Origin: a virus
Strand: one strand, 5' to 3'
Virus record (IMG/VR): IMGVR_UViG_3300048872_000038
Span: 1 to 25,209 of that record
DNA length: 25,209 nt
Made by a program: the position numbers and the translations under genes
In this document: one piece after another, positions 3,499 through 18,322 of the stretch
Position numbering within the stretch: position 1 is the first letter of the stretch
Layout of the letters: the number at the start of each line of letters is the position of its first letter
The notes under the pieces: generated by a model
Database searches by the model: none
What the model was told of the DNA's origin: nothing
Seen by the model: only the letters and a program-made list of their open reading frames with translations

Positions 3499-4023
3499 AT
3501 GAGTGATTTGACTGGCTGCGTTTTTAGCCGATGGACTGTCGTTTCCTATGCCGGCGCTGGCAAGTCGCGAGCCAGCGAATGGTTGTGTCGATGCGAATGC
3601 GGAAAAGAAAAGACGGTGGCTGGGTCGAACCTAAGGCGGGAAAAATCTCGCTCCTGTGGTTGTTTATCTATCGAGCTTGCTAAGGAACGCAGGCTCAAAA
3701 ACATCGACCGATTTACCGGTGCTCGTTTGACGCACGGCATGTTCAACACACCGACATGGCGATCATGGGCATCCATGATCCAGCGATGCACGAATCCAGC
3801 GCGCGAGAACTACCGGTATTACGGGGGCCGAGGCATCAAAGTCTGCGATCGATGGAGAAGAAGCTTTGAGAGCTTCCTCGCCGATATGGGTGAGCGGCCA
3901 GACGGTCTTACGCTGGAGCGGCTCGAGAATGATGGAAATTATCAGCCGGACAATTGTGTGTGGGCGAGCAAAAGTGCGCAGGCGTTAAATCGGAGAGAGC
4001 GTGCGCGTTCGTCTGCCTGCTAG
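3499..4023 (+). CDS. Free-standing homing endonuclease-like protein (zinc ribbon plus HNH/AP2-like domain)
   Basis: This is a likely selfish DNA endonuclease. The N-terminal part carries a zinc-ribbon-like cysteine set: C30, C32, C34, then SCGC at C53 and C55. The C-terminal half has the pattern of phage HNH/AP2-like homing endonucleases: HGMFNTPTWRSWASMIQRC, NYRYYGGRGIKVCDRW, and LERLENDGNYQPDNCVWA before a basic tail with NRR. A complete canonical H-N-H triad is not obvious, so activity is uncertain. It lies between the two terminase genes, is visibly less GC-rich than they are, and its last 23 bases overlap the large-subunit start. TAAGG at 3486-3490 is spaced 8 bases from the ATG. The mobile character is inferred from family and position. 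Confidence 0.8.
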   Translation: MSDLTGCVFSRWTVVSYAGAGKSRASEWLCRCECGKEKTVAGSNLRREKSRSCGCLSIELAKERRLKNIDRFTGARLTHGMFNTPTWRSWASMIQRCTNPARENYRYYGGRGIKVCDRWRRSFESFLADMGERPDGLTLERLENDGNYQPDNCVWASKSAQALNRRERARSSAC

Positions 4024-9913: not shown

Positions 9914-10915
9914 ATGCCAGCCAATCCCAATTTTGACGACATCGTCACGACCACCCTGCGCAACCGCACGGGGAAAACTGCCGACAACGCCACCAAGACC
10001 ATGGCATTGCTCGACCGGCTGCGCCGCAAGGGCAAGGTCAAGGAGGCCGAAGGCGGCCGCACCATCGTGCAGGAGCTGGAAACAGCTCTGAACCCGAACG
10101 GCGGCTGGTACGCCGGCGCCGACGTCCTGAACGCCAATTCGTTCGAGCCGTTCTCGGCGGCCGAATATGACTGGAAACAGGCCTATGTCCCGGCAGTCTG
10201 GACCGGCCTCGAAAAGCTCAAGAACACCGGCGAGCTGGCGGTGATCAACCTGGTGACGGCCCGGGTCAAGAACAGCGAGAAATCGCTGACCGACCTTGTC
10301 GCGCAGGCGTCCTTCAGCGATGGCACCGGCTTTGGCGGCAAGCAGCTGCATGGCACCGGCTTGTTCATTGTCGCCTCGCCCTCGACCGGCGTTGTCGGCG
10401 GTATCGATCGCGCGGCGAATACCTTCTGGCGTAATCAGGCGACTACGGTTGCCATGTCTGTCACGACCAGCGTGGTCAACTTTGCCACGCAAAACCCGCC
10501 GCCATTCCTGATCGCGCTGAATCAGCTGGCTATCGCCTGCACACGCGGCACAGATAGCCCGGATCTCTATATCGCCGATGCGGTTGGTTACACAAATTAT
10601 CTGCAAAGCGTGCAGCCGATTCAGCGCATCACCAACGTCGATATGGGCGGCTACGGGTTCATCAACCTGAAATATTCCGGCATGGGCGGCAATGCCGACT
10701 TCGTGCTGGACAACGGCTACTGCCCGGCGAAGACGGTCTATGCGCTGAACACGGATTACATCTATCTCCGCCCGCACCCTGACCGCAACTTCGTGCCCTT
10801 CGGCGGCGATCGCATTCCTGTCCAGCAGGATGCAACTGTGCGTTTCATCGGCTTCACCGGCAACCTGACGGCGAGCAATCTCTTCCTCCAGGGCGTCATG
10901 ACGTCCACGAACTAA
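9914..10915 (+). CDS. Major capsid protein
   Basis: This protein (333 aa) probably forms the icosahedral shell. It follows the scaffold gene and has a strong ribosome-binding site, GGAGG at 9901-9905, 8 bases from the ATG, as expected for a highly made protein. The N-terminal helix region with RRKGKVKEAEGGRTIVQELE and the WYAGADVLNANSFEPFSAAEYDWKQ region match a capsid family common in alphaproteobacterial podoviruses. Further marks are ARVKNSEKSLTD, SDGTGFGGKQLHG and the late segment FVPFGGDRIPVQQDA. An HK97-like fold is expected but cannot be shown here. No signal or cleavage site is visible. Translation of the next gene starts 12 bases after the stop. Confidence 0.85.
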   Translation: MPANPNFDDIVTTTLRNRTGKTADNATKTMALLDRLRRKGKVKEAEGGRTIVQELETALNPNGGWYAGADVLNANSFEPFSAAEYDWKQAYVPAVWTGLEKLKNTGELAVINLVTARVKNSEKSLTDLVAQASFSDGTGFGGKQLHGTGLFIVASPSTGVVGGIDRAANTFWRNQATTVAMSVTTSVVNFATQNPPPFLIALNQLAIACTRGTDSPDLYIADAVGYTNYLQSVQPIQRITNVDMGGYGFINLKYSGMGGNADFVLDNGYCPAKTVYALNTDYIYLRPHPDRNFVPFGGDRIPVQQDATVRFIGFTGNLTASNLFLQGVMTSTN

Positions 10916-11239: not shown

Positions 11240-11776
11240 ATGTACATTGTTGGAATGCGGCCCAATCAGGGGCTTTTCACCAAGGCGGACTTCCTGCAGG
11301 GCAAGGCCGCTGCGCCTGGTACCCGAGCGGCAGTTCCCGGGGCAAACGGTCAGACCAATGAATTTGTTGCGATCAAACTTGCCGCAGCAACTTGGCTGAA
11401 TGGCGTTGCTGTCATCATCGATGGTGGCGCCGCCCCCGGCAGTGCAGTGACAACTGCTTCTGGGAATCCCGCAAACGTTCAGGGCGCTCGCGTCGGCATT
11501 CTCTGCTTCGCTAGCGTGACGGCAACCCAGACCTTGGTCGGCACCGGCTTCGGCTGGGCGCAGATCTATGGTGAGGCAGTAGCATTCGTGTCCGCCTCTG
11601 TATCAACCCCTGGAGCAGCCCTGGGAATTGGCGCCAGTGGCCAGCTTGTTGCCCTGGCAAGCTTATCTGCATCAGCAGTTCTTATGGGGGTTACCCTTGC
11701 GACGGCTACAGCGGCTGCTGGCGGGTTGACGAAAGTCTTCCTGACCTACCCCCATTTTGAGCCGTTCGGGGCATAG
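11240..11776 (+). CDS. Possible capsid decoration protein, 178 aa
   Basis: This Ala/Gly/Val/Thr-rich protein begins MYIVGMRPNQGLFTKADFLQG and has a predicted beta-rich body, with GVAVIIDGGAAPGSAVTTASG and a middle segment QTLVGTGFGWAQIYGEAVAF. Several hydrophobic Ala-rich stretches occur, but none looks like a real membrane helix. The ribosome-binding site AAGGAG (11226-11231) is strong and spaced 8 bases from the ATG. A GC-rich hairpin lies just after the stop. Its position two genes after the capsid protein and its strong translation signal suggest an abundant virion protein, perhaps a head decoration. I do not recognise a named family. Confidence 0.68.
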   Translation: MYIVGMRPNQGLFTKADFLQGKAAAPGTRAAVPGANGQTNEFVAIKLAAATWLNGVAVIIDGGAAPGSAVTTASGNPANVQGARVGILCFASVTATQTLVGTGFGWAQIYGEAVAFVSASVSTPGAALGIGASGQLVALASLSASAVLMGVTLATATAAAGGLTKVFLTYPHFEPFGA

Positions 11777-11810: not shown

Positions 11811-11829
11811 AATCAATGGAGAGATGAAA

Positions 11830-12177
11830 ATGCAGCTTCCCGTAAGGCTTCTGGACGAGAAGGCCGATAATACGCCTGGCGATCCCGTTCCGTTGCAGAA
11901 TTTCATTTATCTAGCGACTTGTTTCATTAGCCCATCGTCTGATTTTACCGGGACACTCACCATTAATATGGAAATGGCAGAGAATGAGACTGGGCCATGG
12001 AGATCAATGGGCGATATAGGCAATCTTACCACCGGCGATGCTGGTAAATTGCTCGTTGCGTCTTTGGGTGGTTTCACGAGCGGTCATTTCGTTCCCTGGC
12101 TGCGGGCAACGCTCAGTGCATCGCCAACGACTGGCGATGTCACCGTGAATGCCTTCGCGCTCAAATTTCAGCCCTAA
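11830..12177 (+). CDS. Small structural-like protein, 115 aa
   Basis: This small protein of unknown function is probably beta-rich: it has FTGTLTINMEMAENETGPWRS and later LRATLSASPTTGDVTVNAF. Such patterns resemble small head or tail-attached proteins that sense 'mean plus error' style beta domains, but I cannot name a family. The ATG at 11830 is preferred over the one at 11824, because GGAGA at 11818-11822 is 7 bases from the former and only 1 base from the latter; using 11824 adds two residues. It is the last gene before a strong terminator, so it ends the capsid transcription unit. The upstream hairpin may lower its expression relative to the capsid gene. Confidence 0.62.
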   Translation: MQLPVRLLDEKADNTPGDPVPLQNFIYLATCFISPSSDFTGTLTINMEMAENETGPWRSMGDIGNLTTGDAGKLLVASLGGFTSGHFVPWLRATLSASPTTGDVTVNAFALKFQP

Positions 12178-12210: not shown

Positions 12211-12240
12211 GAGGGGGCTTTCTGCCCCCCCCTTTCTTGT
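12211..12240 (+). terminator. Rho-independent terminator closing the capsid operon
   Basis: GGGGGC (12213-12218) pairs with GCCCCC (12224-12229) around the loop TTTCT, followed by CCC and a T-rich tail TTTCTTGT. This is a convincing intrinsic terminator 35-60 bases after the last small capsid-region gene and before the glycosyltransferase gene. The downstream accessory and tail genes therefore need read-through or a promoter of their own. Confidence 0.75.
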
Positions 12241-12273: not shown

Positions 12274-13026
12274 TTGTCCAATATGCGCAGCATTTTTGTC
12301 GGTTATGACCCTCGGGAGACCGAGGCTTTCGATGTTTGCCGGTTCTCGTTGCGCCGGCACGCGCCAAAACTCACGGCCAAGGGACTGTGCCTAGAGCATT
12401 TGCGTGACGCCGGGCTTTACTGGCGTCCCACGACGCGCCGCAATGAACGGCTGTGGGACGATATCTCGGAAGCGCCGATGGCGACGGAGTTCGCCATTTC
12501 TCGCTTTCTGACGCCGATCCTGGCTAAAGAGGGCTGGGCGCTGTTCATGGATTGCGACATCCTTGCCCGCCGCGACCTCGATGCGCTGTTCGCGCAGGCT
12601 GATCCATCCAAGGCGGTGATGTGCGTCAAGCACGCTTACACGCCGACGGAGGCGGTCAAGATGGATGGCCAGCTGCAGACGCTTTACGCGCGCAAGAACT
12701 GGTCGAGCGTGATGCTGTTCAACTGCGCGCATCCGGCCAATGCGCGACTCGACGTAGATCTGGTGAACACGCGTCCGGGCCGCGACCTGCATCGCTTCTG
12801 CTGGCTCGATGATGATGAGATCGGCGAGCTCAATCCAGCGTGGAACTGGCTTGTCGGGGTCTCCGACCCGGCGATCGACCCGGCGCTGGTGCATTTCACC
12901 AATGGGTTGCCGAACATCCCCGGCTATGGCGACAGCGCTTATTCCGATGAGTGGCGCGCCATCTATCGCGAATGGATGGACGACCGCATCGCCAATTGTG
13001 AGGTGCCTTATGCCGCTGATCTCTGA
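12274..13026 (+). CDS. Glycosyltransferase-like protein (GT8-like, DxD motif)
   Basis: This protein (250 aa) probably transfers a sugar from a nucleotide sugar. The N-terminus has IFVGYDPRETEAFDVCRFSLRR, a beginning shared by phage-encoded glycosyltransferases resembling GT8 enzymes. A metal/nucleotide-sugar-binding DxD motif is seen as FMDCDILARRD (D93-C-D95). Near the end, LVHFTNGLPNIPGYG fits the usual acceptor-side region. No membrane segment or signal peptide is present, so it acts in the cytoplasm. The start is a TTG at 12274, supported by GGAGA at 12262-12266 with 7-base spacing; the next ATG at 12283 is too far away. It overlaps the next gene by 17 bases, which ties the two together. 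The substrate is unknown. Confidence 0.78.
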   Translation: MSNMRSIFVGYDPRETEAFDVCRFSLRRHAPKLTAKGLCLEHLRDAGLYWRPTTRRNERLWDDISEAPMATEFAISRFLTPILAKEGWALFMDCDILARRDLDALFAQADPSKAVMCVKHAYTPTEAVKMDGQLQTLYARKNWSSVMLFNCAHPANARLDVDLVNTRPGRDLHRFCWLDDDEIGELNPAWNWLVGVSDPAIDPALVHFTNGLPNIPGYGDSAYSDEWRAIYREWMDDRIANCEVPYAADL

Positions 13027-14770
13027 AAGCTATCGCGAGCAGAACAAAGAGTTGCATAGGCGCGAGCCGACCTTTGGCAACGACAATTTCGGCTGGAGCA
13101 AGTTCGCGCTGCAGCTTGTTAGCGGCAACGGTTATCGGACCGTGCTCGATTATGGTTGCGGCAAGGGCAATCTCAAGCGGACGCTTGCCAACGCCGATTG
13201 CATCGTCGCGGAATATGATCCGGCGATCGAGGGCAAGGACGGCGAACCGGACCCGGCCGAATTGGTCGTCTGCACTGACGTCCTCGAGCATATTGAGCCC
13301 GTGCATCTCAATGCGGTGCTGCGACATCTGCGCGAGCTGACCAGGCGCCGGCTATTCGTGACCATAGCGACCCGCCCAGCCGTAAAGACGCTCGCTGATG
13401 GCCGCAACGCGCACTTGCTGGTGAAGCCCGGCAATTGGTGGCGGGCCAAACTATTGGAGTTCTTTCAGATCTTGACCTGGGATGAACGCGGTTCGACGGT
13501 CGCGGCCGAGCTGGTCGCCAAGAAGCACACGGGCTGCATCAAGCCGGCTGGCCGCCGCGTCATGACATCGCCGATGCGGGCACATTTCGACACCATCCGA
13601 GACGAGATCAACAGCAATTCCGATGCCTTTTCGCAGATTGCCAGCGTCAGGATGTTCGAGGCTATTGATGATGAGCAGGCCGACTTGCAGGCCGCCTGCG
13701 ATATCATCGAACATCTGGACGATATCGATGCTGCGCTTCACGCCCTGGCTGCCAAGTCACTGAAATGCACTTTCGTCGCCGTCAAGATCACCGATCTGCA
13801 AAGCGAATGGGATTGGCGTCGCATCCTGGAAAAGCGTTTTCGCGTGGCTCAGTGGCAGGTCGACGGGAGATATGTGGTCATGATCGGGGCGCCTGGGGTC
13901 ATGGTGCAGGGCATCACTGCCATTGGCGCCGTCGCTAGCGATGAGCGCTGGAAAAACGTGGAAGCCGCTGTGCAGCTGTTTTCTGACCGCATCGCTCTAT
14001 CGGAGGCGCACGAGCGCACGGCGCTCATCGCCTGTTACGGCCCGTCTCTTATCGAGACCATCGACCTGCTGAAGCGCGAATCCGAGCGGCCCGATGTCGA
14101 TGTAATCTCGGTCTCTGGCGCGCACGATTTTCTGCTGAGCCACGGCATCGTGCCGAGGTATCACATCGAATGCGACCCTCGCCCGCACAAGGCCGACAAT
14201 ATCGAGAAGTTCCGTCCCGATGTGACCTATATGATCGCATCGGTTGTACACGAGGCGTATTTCACCAAGCTGGTTGCAGATGGCGCCGCGGTCAAGCTGT
14301 GGCATGTCTCGACCGGCGAGCATGCGCTGCGCATCATCAACGAGCTGAAAGAGAACCCCAAGCACGTGGTTTCCGGTGGCGGTTCTGTCGGCCTGCGCTC
14401 CATCCCGCTGCTCTATGCCATGGGCTACCGCGACATGTCGGTGTTCGCCATGGATTGCAGCTTTAAGAGCGAAGGCGAAACGGTGCAGCAATGGGCTGGC
14501 AAGCACGCGGGTAAAAAGCAGGACTGCTGTGAGGTGCTCTGCAACGGCGTGATGTTCATTTCATCGCCAGTGCTGCTGACTTATGCCACCAACTTCTTCG
14601 AGATGGTGCAGAAAGTCACGGATCTGAATGTGCGGCTCTACGGGCACGGCCTGCTGCAGAGCATGTGCCAATATTACATGGCCGAGCCATCAAGCCAGAC
14701 CGGCTTTATGGACCGCATCGAGCACGTCGAAGATGAGACTGATCCCGTGCTCGAGGAAAAAGTGGCCTAG
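13010..14770 (+). CDS. Fusion protein: SAM methyltransferase, second methyltransferase-like half, DUF115/MptE-like domain
   Basis: This 586-aa protein shows three parts. Residues 30-170 form a class I SAM-dependent methyltransferase: motif I is VLDYGCGKGNLKRTL (45-59), and VVCTDVLEHIEP is at 86-97. Residues 186-297 resemble the second half of a methyltransferase (ACDIIEHLDDID at 229-240, EWDWRRILEKRF), but no SAM-binding glycine motif is seen. Residues 335-560 resemble the DUF115/MptE-like domain found in flagellin Maf glycosylation proteins: ALIACYGPSL (338-347), ISVSGAHDFLLSHGIVPRYH, ECDPRPHK, and SGGGSVGLRSIPLLYAMGY. The start at 13010 has GAGG at 13000-13003 and overlaps the glycosyltransferase gene. 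A role in glycan synthesis or decoration is inferred. Domain 3 is a family-level call, not proven activity. Confidence 0.75.
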   Translation: MPLISESYREQNKELHRREPTFGNDNFGWSKFALQLVSGNGYRTVLDYGCGKGNLKRTLANADCIVAEYDPAIEGKDGEPDPAELVVCTDVLEHIEPVHLNAVLRHLRELTRRRLFVTIATRPAVKTLADGRNAHLLVKPGNWWRAKLLEFFQILTWDERGSTVAAELVAKKHTGCIKPAGRRVMTSPMRAHFDTIRDEINSNSDAFSQIASVRMFEAIDDEQADLQAACDIIEHLDDIDAALHALAAKSLKCTFVAVKITDLQSEWDWRRILEKRFRVAQWQVDGRYVVMIGAPGVMVQGITAIGAVASDERWKNVEAAVQLFSDRIALSEAHERTALIACYGPSLIETIDLLKRESERPDVDVISVSGAHDFLLSHGIVPRYHIECDPRPHKADNIEKFRPDVTYMIASVVHEAYFTKLVADGAAVKLWHVSTGEHALRIINELKENPKHVVSGGGSVGLRSIPLLYAMGYRDMSVFAMDCSFKSEGETVQQWAGKHAGKKQDCCEVLCNGVMFISSPVLLTYATNFFEMVQKVTDLNVRLYGHGLLQSMCQYYMAEPSSQTGFMDRIEHVEDETDPVLEEKVA

Positions 14771-14808: not shown

Positions 14809-15507
14809 ATGAACATGGATGACGACTTCCCGATGATGATGGAGATCGAATTCAACTCCAATCCGCACAATCCCTATCCGCCTGTCGCGGTCGCCTTCGG
14901 CATCTATCCGCTGCTCGATGCGGTCAAGACGGCTAAGGTCGGACACGACTTCTATTCGGATGTCGAGTTCGTCAAGATCGCCGTACCTGGCGACAAGAAC
15001 AGCGTCGTATTCCAGCCCGCCGCAGATACGCATCGAAGGCGATTCCCGAAGGCCTATGCCGAATTCAAGGCGCGCACGGCCGGCGCGGAAACGCGCGAAG
15101 GCTTGCCGATCGAGCAGTGGGCGCCGATCAGCCGGTCCGTGGCCATGACCTTGCGTGCGGCGCATATCCACACGGTTGAGGCACTGGCGGCCGTGCATGA
15201 CGGGCATATCGACCGCATCGGCACCAACGGGCGCGAGCTGCGTGCCAAGGCGCAAGCGTTCCTGGAGCAGGCGAAGGATTCTTCGGCAGTCCTAAAGCTT
15301 GCCGCCGACAAGAAGGAGCTGCAGGACCAGCTCGCCGCCATGCAACTGCAGATCAACCAGCTTGTGCAGATGCAGTCGGCTCCTCCCGCAACGCCTGCGG
15401 TGCCAGAACCTGGTGAGAAGCTTCTGGAAATGGCATCGACGGCGCCAGCCGCTACCGACCCCGCCGTGGCCGCCCGCCAGCCCAGCCGCCGCGCCAAGGC
15501 CGAATAA
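14809..15507 (+). CDS. Phage protein with helix-hairpin-helix-like region and coiled coil
   Basis: The function of this 232-aa protein is unknown. Residues 1-100 are a mixed domain rich in acidic and aromatic residues. Residues 113-152 (TLRAAHIHTVEALAAVHDGH, then IDRIGTNGRELRAKAQAFL) closely resemble the helix-hairpin-helix pattern seen in the RNA polymerase alpha C-terminal domain and DNA repair proteins. Residues 155-188 form a short coiled coil (DKKELQDQLAAMQLQINQL). The remainder is a Pro/Ala-rich flexible tail ending in basic residues. GGAGA at 14798-14802 is 6 bases before the ATG. It precedes the gp4-like adaptor gene, so a head-completion or DNA-contact role is possible, but that is inference. 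Confidence 0.7.
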   Translation: MNMDDDFPMMMEIEFNSNPHNPYPPVAVAFGIYPLLDAVKTAKVGHDFYSDVEFVKIAVPGDKNSVVFQPAADTHRRRFPKAYAEFKARTAGAETREGLPIEQWAPISRSVAMTLRAAHIHTVEALAAVHDGHIDRIGTNGRELRAKAQAFLEQAKDSSAVLKLAADKKELQDQLAAMQLQINQLVQMQSAPPATPAVPEPGEKLLEMASTAPAATDPAVAARQPSRRAKAE

Positions 15508-15513
15508 ACCGCC

Positions 15514-16221
15514 ATGACTCTGCTGTCGATCGTCCAGGACGCCGCGGTCATTCTGGGGCTGCCGGAGCCGTCGGCTGTCGTCTCCTCGACAGATCTCGCG
15601 ACGAAAAAGCTGCTCAAATACGCCAATCAGGGTGGCAAGGAGCTGGCCAAATATCACGACTGGCAGGCGCTGATCATCGAGAAGACCTTCACCACGCTGG
15701 CGACGGAGGAACAGACGAACGCTCTTCCGCCGGCCGACTATGGCCGCATGGTCTACAATCCCGAAATCTGGGACCGCACCAGCAATCTAAGGCTGACCGG
15801 CCCGACGCCGCAACGCTATTGGGCGCTGCTGAAGACGAACATCAGCGTCGGCGGCGTGACCGGCTATTGGCGTATCCTGGGCAACCAGCTGCGCGTTCTG
15901 CCGGCGATGACCGCTGGGCACACGCTGGGCTTTGAATATATCTCCAAGCGCTGGGCGCAATCTTCCGGCGGCTCGCGCCAGGAAAGCTTCATGGCGGACA
16001 CCGACACGGCGCTGATCTCGGAGGATTTGATCACCTTGGAGGTCATCTGGCGGTTTCGGCAATCGCGCGGCTTCGCCCAATACGCCGAGGATCTGTCCAC
16101 TTGCGAGCGCGAGAAGGAGAAGGCCGCAGCCGCCGATCGCGGCACGGGCCGCATTCGTCCGGAATCGAGCGCTTATGGCCAGAGCCCGCAGCAGCCGGGT
16201 TGGACGGGCATCATCACATGA
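15514..16221 (+). CDS. Head-tail adaptor, P22 gp4-like tail accessory factor
   Basis: This 235-aa protein probably binds the bottom of the portal ring and forms the first tail layer. The start MTLLSIVQDAAVILGLPEPSAV and the segments LLKYANQGGKELAKYHDWQAL, LPPADYGRM and NQLRVLPAMTAGHTLGFEYISKRWA are typical of phage adaptor proteins of the P22 gp4 kind. A later segment RFRQSRGFAQYAED is the family's usual late helix. No cell-wall hydrolase motif is visible, although P22 gp4 itself has muralytic activity. The stop overlaps the next start as ATGA. The following gp10-like gene supports the call. Confidence 0.82.
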   Translation: MTLLSIVQDAAVILGLPEPSAVVSSTDLATKKLLKYANQGGKELAKYHDWQALIIEKTFTTLATEEQTNALPPADYGRMVYNPEIWDRTSNLRLTGPTPQRYWALLKTNISVGGVTGYWRILGNQLRVLPAMTAGHTLGFEYISKRWAQSSGGSRQESFMADTDTALISEDLITLEVIWRFRQSRGFAQYAEDLSTCEREKEKAAAADRGTGRIRPESSAYGQSPQQPGWTGIIT

Positions 16222-17825
16222 CGCGCCGGGCATTGGCGGGCGTCTCGGCCAGGGGGCCGCGGTTCCAGGTCCGGGCGGTGCCCGAGATCGCTCGCGGCGT
16301 TTCCATTCCGGCGCCCGTGCAGGGCTGGGACGCCATCTCACCACTTGCCGCGATGCCGGAAACGCGCGCGGTGACGCTCGACAATCTCTTCCCGCAGCCC
16401 GGCTATGTGGAGATCCGCAAGGGGCACAGGCGGCACAACACACTTTCCCCGGTCATCACGCCGGTGGAGAGTTTGATGGCCTACCACGCGCTGAGCACCG
16501 CCAATAATAAGCTGTTCGCCGCCTCGGGCACAGCGATCTACGACGTTACAGCGACCACCACCACGACCATTCCCGCCTCGCTCTCAGGCCTCGCCAATGC
16601 GCGGTGGCAACACATCAATTTCTCGACCAGCGGCGGCAACTTCCTGTGGATCTGCAACGGCGCCGATGTGCCGCGCACTTGGGACGGCACCGTTTGGGCG
16701 ACGGCTTCGGTGACCGGCATTACGCCGACGGATATCGTTCATGTCGCGGCCTATTCCGAGCGCATCTGGATGACGCGCAAGAACCAGATCAGCCCCGCCT
16801 ATCTGAACACCGACAGCATCCAAGGGGCTGCAACGATCCTTGACCTGACCGGCGTCTTCAATAAGGGCGGCTTTCTGGAGGCCGTTGGCGCCTGGTCTCG
16901 CGACGGCGGCCAAGGGCCGGACGATTACGTCGCCTTCATCACCTCCCGCGGCGAGGTGGCGATCTATTCCGGCGATCCATCCCGGAACTTCGAGCTCGCC
17001 GGCGTCTATGAGATGGGCGCCCCGATCGGGCGGCGATGCCTGACCAAGGTCGGGCCGGACCTCGCAGTGGTCTGCGTTGATGGGGTCGTGCCCCTCTCGC
17101 GCGCCATCAATACGGACAGGGCGGCGATTCTCAACGCCACCATCACCGCGCAGATCCAGCCAGTGATGAACCAGTCGGCGCGGGACTGGAGCACGCTTTT
17201 CGGCTGGCAGCTGACCTCATATGCCAGAGGCACGCGGGCCATCCTCAACGTTCCCGTCCTGGAGAATGGCGAGCAGCGCCAATATGTGATGAACACCATC
17301 ACCGGCGCCTGGTGCCGGTTTCTGGACGAGAACGCCAATTGCTGGGAGATATTCCAGGATCGGCTGTTTTACGGCGGCAATACCGGCCACATCGTCGAGG
17401 CCGACTGCCAGGGCTTCGATTATGACGGGCCGATCGAATACAACCTGGAGACCGCGTTCAACTACTGCAAGAATCGCGGGCGGCTCAAGGATTTCACCAT
17501 GTGCCGCAGCCTGCTGCTGACCGATGGGCAGGCATCGGCAGGTTTGGCGCTCAACATCGATTTCGCCCGCAATGCCGCCATTGCCAGCCTGTCCGTTGCC
17601 GCCGACACGCTGGCGCTCTGGGATGTGGCGCTCTGGGATGCCGGCGTATGGCCGGAAACCAGCCGTGTCATCACCAATTGGTCCGCCGTCGAGGGCGAAG
17701 GCTTTGTCGCCAGCATTCACATGCAGGGCGCGGTGACGCTCGGGGCAGGCGGTGACGCGTCGCAGCCGGTGGTGTTCCAGATCAATGGCTGGGACCTGCA
17801 GGTCATCGACGGAGCATTTATGTGA
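16218..17825 (+). CDS. P22 gp10-like packaged-DNA stabilisation / tail hub protein
   Basis: This 535-aa protein likely forms the tail hub below the adaptor and helps keep packaged DNA inside. The N-terminal part with DAISPLAAMPETRAVTLDNLFPQ and YVEIRKGHRRH is typical of podovirus tail hub proteins. A repeated beta-strand (propeller-like) body follows, with FLWICNGADVPRTWDG, VHVAAYSERIWMT and VAFITSRGEVAIYSGDPS. No catalytic motif is seen. The start is the ATG at 16218, sharing bases with the previous stop (ATGA). Earlier in-frame codons would overlap the adaptor gene much further. The end overlaps the next gene by four bases (GTGA). The gp4-gp10 order matches P22. Confidence 0.83.
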   Translation: MTRRALAGVSARGPRFQVRAVPEIARGVSIPAPVQGWDAISPLAAMPETRAVTLDNLFPQPGYVEIRKGHRRHNTLSPVITPVESLMAYHALSTANNKLFAASGTAIYDVTATTTTTIPASLSGLANARWQHINFSTSGGNFLWICNGADVPRTWDGTVWATASVTGITPTDIVHVAAYSERIWMTRKNQISPAYLNTDSIQGAATILDLTGVFNKGGFLEAVGAWSRDGGQGPDDYVAFITSRGEVAIYSGDPSRNFELAGVYEMGAPIGRRCLTKVGPDLAVVCVDGVVPLSRAINTDRAAILNATITAQIQPVMNQSARDWSTLFGWQLTSYARGTRAILNVPVLENGEQRQYVMNTITGAWCRFLDENANCWEIFQDRLFYGGNTGHIVEADCQGFDYDGPIEYNLETAFNYCKNRGRLKDFTMCRSLLLTDGQASAGLALNIDFARNAAIASLSVAADTLALWDVALWDAGVWPETSRVITNWSAVEGEGFVASIHMQGAVTLGAGGDASQPVVFQINGWDLQVIDGAFM

Positions 17826-18322
17826 TCGTTCCGGCCGTGACCGACGCTCAGAAGACGATGCTGGTCAATTATCTGGCGGAGAAGGTTGGCGTCGGCGTGG
17901 AAAGCCTCGTTGGCAAGATGCCTTTCGAGGTGCTCGCGGTGATACGCGGCGGCCGAGGCCTTGGTGCGGTCCTCTACACCAATTACCGCGAGACCTCGAT
18001 CGAGATGTGCTGGGCCGGCGAGCCGGGATGGGTGACGCGCGGCGATCTGCGCTCGATCTTCTCCTATCCGTTCATCCAGCTCGGTTGCCTCAGGGCATCG
18101 GGCTGCATCAAGCGTTCCAACAGCGCCAGCCGGCTGTTTGCGGCGCGCATCGGCTGCCGGGAAATCGGCGTGCTGGAAGACGAGTACGGCCCTGGCGCCG
18201 ACGGCATTCTCTACACCATCACGCGGGACAAGTGCCGCTGGATTGGGCCTGACTGCAAACTTCAGATGAACGGATACCGCTCGCATGGGCAAGAAGACAC
18301 CCAAAACCCCCGATCCTTATAA
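17822..18322 (+). CDS. GNAT-like acetyltransferase-family phage protein
   Basis: This 166-aa protein resembles short GNAT-fold proteins often encoded in podovirus tail modules. Marks are FEVLAVIRGGRGLGAVLYTNYRE, EMCWAGEPGWVTRGDLRSIF, PFIQLGCLRASGCIKRSNSAS and FAARIGCREIGVLED, followed by a late RDKCRW. The usual acetyl-CoA-binding Q/RxxGxG/A loop is not clear, so it may be a structural or inactive relative. The start is a GTG at 17822 overlapping the previous stop as GTGA. The 3' end overlaps the next gene by 38 bases. That strong overlap suggests coupled translation. What it acetylates, if anything, is unknown. Confidence 0.7.
   Translation: MIVPAVTDAQKTMLVNYLAEKVGVGVESLVGKMPFEVLAVIRGGRGLGAVLYTNYRETSIEMCWAGEPGWVTRGDLRSIFSYPFIQLGCLRASGCIKRSNSASRLFAARIGCREIGVLEDEYGPGADGILYTITRDKCRWIGPDCKLQMNGYRSHGQEDTQNPRSL

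Follow-up and report, generated by a model that had tools for sequence, protein, structure and literature searches.

We found that a glycosyltransferase (GT) gene and the methyltransferase/DUF115 fusion gene behind it probably represent one form of an exchangeable cassette for Maf-type virion glycosylation, which occupies a constant position in P22/Mx8-like podoviruses, behind the head genes and ahead of the first gene of the tail module. The domains and folds of both proteins, the pairing of their genes, the fixed site and the modular exchange of its content are directly apparent from the loci and models compared. The window that we analyzed is a virus fragment of 25,209 bases from IMG/VR (IMGVR_UViG_3300048872_000038), which encodes helicase/primase, terminase, portal, scaffold-like, major capsid, decoration-like, tail and lysis-type genes on its plus strand. 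By sequence it is a fragment of a P22/Mx8-like podovirus, whose capsid and tail proteins are similar to those of the Myxococcus phages Mx8 and Mx9, Bradyrhizobium phage ppBjS10J-1 and Stenotrophomonas phage BUCT555. A 249 kb Rhodomicrobium sp. R_RK_3 contig contains a syntenic relative, with 53-77% identity for most structural genes from the large terminase to the tail, and a host of the window virus within the Hyphomicrobiales is therefore likely.

The initial annotation had located the pair between capsid and tail genes, which is borne out by the major capsid protein (MCP, phrog_9953) upstream and a tail protein (phrog_6013) downstream (Table 1). All genes of the pair and its neighborhood lie on the late strand, and the gene following the MCP gene probably encodes a decoration protein. 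Two other genes of the window deserve mention: an acyl-CoA N-acyltransferase-like gene in the tail module (17822-18319, phrog_4470) is kept in relatives and present in two copies in L009 (L-numbers label the related loci compared here), and an HNH endonuclease gene (3499-4020) lies between the small and large terminase genes, with a GC content of 0.55, below that of its neighbors.

Table 1. The glycosyltransferase/fusion pair and flanking features in the window
Feature	Position	Strand	Details
Major capsid protein (MCP)	9914..10915	+	phrog_9953, E 3.7e-85
Probable head decoration protein gene	11240..11776	+	Conserved behind MCP in relatives
Small gene, family unassigned	11824..12177		Just before hairpin and island; lowest GC (0.51) among genes measured
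GC-rich hairpin behind head module, terminator- or attenuator-like	12213..12229	+	
GT-A glycosyltransferase, GT8-like	12274..13026	+	250 aa; TTG start
Putative ribosome-binding site of fusion gene, inside GT gene	13000..13005	+	GAGGTG; from sequence
Three-domain fusion: SAM methyltransferase, truncated methyltransferase, DUF115/MptE-like (Maf-central-domain-like) transferase	13010..14770	+	586 aa
Domain 1, class I SAM methyltransferase	13010..13543	+	Residues 1-178; motif I VLDYGCGKG intact
Domain 2, truncated methyltransferase half without motif I	13553..13915	+	Residues 182-302
Domain 3, DUF115/MptE-like, Maf_flag10 fold	13916..14689	+	About residues 303-560
First gene after island, borders insertion site	14809..15507	+	p50/phrog_20268
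Tail protein	15514..16221	+	phrog_6013, E 7.9e-50
phrog_5107 protein, named amidase	16101..17825	+	Relatives annotated as phage stabilization or tubular tail B protein

The genes of the pair share 17 bases (13010-13026), so that this part of the initial annotation stands, as do its coordinates, which follow from the open reading frames 12274-13026 and 13010-14770. The mechanically called frame of the fusion gene opens at 12809. We chose the ATG at 13010 as its start because of the GAGGTG at 13000-13005 and because the N-termini of relatives (MLISDDYRRLN... and others) match, while the TTG start of the GT gene is supported by the N-terminus MSNMRSIYIG of L098. Stop and start codons of the two genes lie no more than about 10 bases apart in 9 of the 10 relatives measured, a closeness which suggests that their translation is coupled.

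The predicted structure of the GT (AlphaFold, pLDDT 91.8) shows a confident GT-A fold, with WbbM, GlyE, LgtC, the GT8 structure 3tzt, glycogenin and UGGT as the best PDB matches in Foldseek. Its DxD motif, noticed in the initial annotation, is D93-x-D95; both aspartates, together with H207, G211 and P213, are invariant across 30 GT homologues. The latter three residues form an H-x3-G-x-P motif (H207-x3-G211-x-P213), a variant resembling the HxxGxxKPW motif of GT8, and the combination of GT-A fold, DxD and HxxGxxKPW-type motif that marks GT8 enzymes is thus present, the last element as a variant. Membership in GT8 by Pfam was rejected, since the PF01501 match (E 0.024; 14.6 bits versus a gathering score of 24.3) is below the cut-off. 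The designation as GT8-like consequently holds for the modeled fold and its Foldseek matches, but not for the Pfam family. By profile, the protein matches phrog_28018 (E 3.2e-51). PDB searches with the single sequences of the GT and the fusion gave chance-level matches only, and profile-based searches with both gave weak but sensible ones.

For the fusion (AlphaFold, pLDDT 86.9), both initially annotated domains were recovered, but its makeup is not two-part, as a second, truncated methyltransferase lies inside the protein. Domain 1 matches Pfam Methyltransf_23 above cut-off (E 1.8e-8) and the phrog_24759 methyltransferase (2.3e-21), and aligns with SAM methyltransferases over residues 4-175 (VIA-align, Z about 13-16). 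Domain 2 is related to domain 1 (hhalign probability 97.9, E 4.3e-13), and the strand/helix order of residues 83-170 recurs at 224-295 of the model; judged from alignment and model, it is another methyltransferase domain that lacks its first half. Domain 3 matches the MptE-like/DUF115 family PF01973 above cut-off (E 2.6e-16) and carries the invariant motifs GPS, SGxHD, HxECDPRxHKA, GG, MD and AGxH; H499 is one of the invariant residues of the fusion. Its best structural match is Maf of Magnetospirillum (5mu5; Z 20.9, rmsd 3.2, 228 residues aligned), and MptE/HPPK of M. jannaschii (8sd5, Z 14.7) follows below Maf as the second distinct fold; as modeled, the domain folds like the central domain of Maf, better than like MptE. 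Structure prediction, suggested initially as a check on the two proteins, thus yielded both a GT-A and a Maf/DUF115 fold. Similar MptE-like proteins of uncultured phages are present in structure databases, where no role is given for them.

The DUF115/Maf_flag10 domain (PF01973) is common to the phage fusion and to Maf, a flagellin glycosyltransferase. In Maf, a degenerate Rossmann-like domain with weak methyltransferase-like motifs precedes the DUF115-type domain (PMC11339370), and its place is occupied in the phage fusion by the truncated methyltransferase domain. This likeness of the N-terminal parts is suggestive and concerns layout, which is what we compared, rather than homology: the VIA alignment of the fusion to 5mu5 extends over residues 309-585 only, and a match to a Pfam family of the Maf N-terminus was not obtained. 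Unlike Maf, the phage protein adds an intact SAM methyltransferase and lacks the C-terminal helical-bundle domain, as it ends at residue 586 with pLDDT values below 50 for residues 559-583. Maf belongs to a flagellar context, whereas the fusion is part of a virion module and no flagellar gene occurs among the window genes; yet both are encoded beside genes for a protein polymer that assembles by itself. Flagellin glycosylation islands next to fliC likewise bring together GTs with AdoMet/FkbM methyltransferases (PMC4875605). Like the phage islands, they combine variable GTs, sugar-nucleotide genes and methyltransferases at a fixed site next to a structural gene, but they are located on the bacterial chromosome and concern flagellin, whereas the phage islands occupy the head-tail junction and include DUF115 in every filled site listed.

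To define this site, IMG/VR was scanned with the MCP alone, for up to 80 loci, so that loci were not chosen through the pair. Among the matches listed, 73 loci reached the tail gene and formed 60 clusters at 99% MCP identity. The site was filled (2020-6564 bp) in 27 of these 60 clusters and empty (737-1894 bp) in the other 33; again among the matches listed, DUF115 was present in 27/27 filled and 0/33 empty sites, and a GT of the window type in 8 of the 27, most others having a GT::DUF115 type. In a list of 35 filled sites, which unlike the 27/60 count includes some loci found through the GT, GTs were present in 33 and methyltransferases in 30, the former from two families and the latter from three (Methyltransf_23, Methyltransf_24 and FkbM). 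A close relative of the window, L125 (79% MCP identity), is island-less. Identities of capsid and GT do not run in parallel (35% versus 68% for L108, 78% versus 50% for L102), which suggests from sequence comparison that the cassette moves between phage lineages. In BUCT555 (L120, 7041-8960), the head-tail gap harbors holin and endolysin genes instead of glycan genes, and HNH-like genes were also seen in this gap.

The idea of a paired system, which the initial annotation had made dependent on homologues being adjacent elsewhere, survives this comparison: homologues adjoin each other in many phages, and GT and DUF115 are fused in others. On contigs that are long enough, nearly every fusion relative is accompanied by a GT, directly adjoining or at most 2.3 kb away and on either side. 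Those with no adjoining GT are on truncated contigs (L093, L096, L111), in L113, or are separate short DUF115 genes (L114-L116). Variants of the pair include a reversed gene order (L097), absence of the middle domain (L015), a separate DUF115 gene (L020), replacement of the N-terminal methyltransferase by Methyltransf_24 (L112, L104) and an additional C-terminal FkbM methyltransferase (L010). The L112 island furthermore encodes a GDP-mannose 4,6-dehydratase (PF16363, E 2.8e-117), homologues of which occur in L109 and L113. The other island type has a protein of 458-691 residues that joins a glycogenin-like GT (profile match to glycogenin, E 4e-5) directly to DUF115. Next to this Rosetta-stone fusion, or as part of it, there is usually a methyltransferase of the FkbM or Methyltransf_24 family. 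That the GT of the window belongs to the same family as this DUF115-fused GT was rejected: the match is confined to the DxD region with an hhalign probability of 9.4, and the two are therefore treated as different families.

Related arrangements were seen in other contexts. The virus IMGVR_UViG_3300050500_000083 has, in addition to L109:9965-11146, a second, separate DUF115 gene (L114:9785-10621) behind portal-like genes and ahead of glycine-rich proteins. In Caulobacter phage CcrColossus (gp126-gp131), a GT homologue lies directly beside a homologue of the domain-1 methyltransferase, as in the window, and a weakly matching MptE-like gene is found near a tail gene; this phage differs in its separate genes, its 280 kb genome and the location at the tail rather than at the head-tail site. 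The GT family as a whole comprises at least 598 relatives among IMG/VR candidates. In about 40 loci of marine T4-like contigs (L040-L091, e.g., L082:9228-10001), it directly follows a nucleotidyltransferase-cupin fusion (CTP_transf_like + MannoseP_isomer), a gene neighborhood which suggests that large marine phages have a further glycan pathway. Apparent siphoviruses (L034, L088, L016, L018) encode GT homologues adjoining head-tail connector-like genes and accompanied by FkbM-type or other methyltransferases and further GTs, and in Synechococcus phage S-SCSM2R (L004, 4998-8523) the homologue adjoins carbohydrate phosphorylase, KdsB and KdsA genes. As the same family thus occurs outside head-tail modules in large marine phages, the GT alone is not proof of virion glycosylation.

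According to the initial annotation, a clear intrinsic terminator precedes the pair. A hairpin is indeed present, but it is not clear-cut: the terminator scan of the region gave 6 sites versus 5.7 +/- 2.5 in shuffled sequences, and the stem at 12213-12229 alone is not clearly above chance (p = 0.075). GC-rich hairpins at the same spot exceed chance in L009, L098, L092, L104, L097 and L112, which makes the hairpin of the window believable and probably real. Since a hairpin also follows the decoration gene in island-less relatives, namely ppBjS10J-1 and ctMlz233 (L117 and L118) as well as L125, it is a feature of the head module, and a terminator as part of the pair was rejected.

Integrase genes are present in 5 of 11 relative contigs and several relatives are temperate, and the main rival explanation is therefore that the enzymes modify the host surface, altering LPS or exopolysaccharide during late infection or lysogeny, as in serotype conversion or superinfection exclusion. 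Such modification by phage GTs is known according to a review statement (PMC12619734), the syntenic relative sits in a Rhodomicrobium genome, and the GT family also adjoins KdsA/KdsB and sugar-nucleotide genes in large phages. We nevertheless consider host-surface modification unlikely. The cassette holds one position in the late structural operon across many genomes, unlike usual conversion genes, and our scan found no promoter-like site ahead of the pair. The two window proteins have no clear membrane segment, and thus no hydrophobic stretch typical of membrane conversion GTs, and the DUF115 fold matches a protein O-glycosyltransferase. The site might also merely tolerate inserts unrelated to the virion, as the holin, endolysin and HNH-like genes in the same gap could indicate. 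Such a cargo hotspot is improbable, given that the presence of DUF115 in all 27 filled sites of the MCP scan, among the matches listed, is far too uniform for neutral cargo, and that the catalytic motifs are conserved.

Hypermodification of DNA or nucleotides by the GT and the methyltransferase appears very unlikely. DNA-modifying phage GTs are common, as the same review states (PMC12619734), but a thymidylate-synthase-like gene was absent from 11 relative contigs, some of them fragments, in a search with positive controls, and both the resemblance of the DUF115 domain to Maf and the site in the virion module speak against it. For a TET/JBP gene, these 11 contigs gave no match in a search whose control was silent, too. 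Even less credible is a role of the DUF115 domain as a genuine MptE-type 6-hydroxymethylpterin diphosphokinase, with the pair making a pterin or another small molecule: although the Pfam family bears the name of MptE and HPPK ranks second among the distinct folds matched, the match to Maf is much better (Z 20.9 versus 14.7), and the GTs, sugar-type methyltransferases and GDP-mannose dehydratase that constantly accompany the domain also speak against this reading.

Among the three roles offered initially, the comparative evidence hence favors decoration of the virion over changes of host surface glycans or action on a nucleotide-linked substrate. The makeup of GT, DUF115 and methyltransferase, with an occasional sugar-nucleotide enzyme, the late-operon site, the GT::DUF115 fusion and the Maf fold all point to cytoplasmic glycosylation of a virion protein, and the GT is linked to structural genes, as in virion glycosylation systems. 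We infer enzymatic activities, donor, acceptor, order of steps and virion effect as follows. The GT8-like enzyme and the Maf-like DUF115 domain would use nucleotide-activated sugars in the host cytoplasm, where they would synthesize a short glycan on, or transfer it to, a subunit of the virion (decoration, capsid or tail protein) prior to particle assembly, similar to the way in which Maf glycosylates flagellin ahead of its export. The N-terminal methyltransferase would O-methylate the sugar, and the truncated second methyltransferase domain is probably structural. The window's own island contains no donor-synthesis gene. The putative decoration protein is one candidate acceptor. It is not supported as the proven one, as its family occurs with and without islands (present at 23 of 34 island-less sites); its Ser/Thr content is just slightly higher with islands, at 0.21, than without, at 0.17 (p = 0.005, kinship ignored).

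Virion glycosylation by phage enzymes is already known from mycobacteriophages: proteins of the capsid and the tail tube are glycosylated by GTs of Che8, Corndog and Myrna (Freeman 2023, cited by PMC12619734, PMC12363180 and PMC11256854). According to these citing accounts, phage-encoded GTs act on virion proteins there, as proposed for the cassette. The mycobacteriophages have different hosts, the citing papers' accounts mention no Maf-like enzyme, and in Maravista, as described there, the GT genes are near the 3' end of the genome and not beside the capsid gene. In the literature that we covered, which is incomplete, we found no description of a Maf/DUF115/MptE-like island in a phage virion module.

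Virion glycosylation has been documented in few phages, mainly mycobacteriophages. We tentatively propose that podoviruses of environmental bacteria may possess an island devoted to Maf-type protein glycosylation, which is exchanged horizontally and would cover a head protein with a methylated glycan. In this phage counterpart of flagellin glycosylation islands, DUF115 would be the constant core, and the GTs, methyltransferases and sugar-nucleotide enzymes around it would be replaced by others so that the virion receives a different type of glycan. If true, a fixed and often occupied Maf-like site would make virion glycosylation predictable, widespread in environmental podoviruses and findable by sequence, and would join the enzymes of bacterial flagellin glycosylation with the surfaces of phage particles. 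The enzymes may furthermore be useful as soluble protein glycosyltransferases. The presence of different glycan cassettes at one site suggests selection for variety of the particle surface, which could concern adsorption, recognition by host defense, predation or sticking to surfaces.
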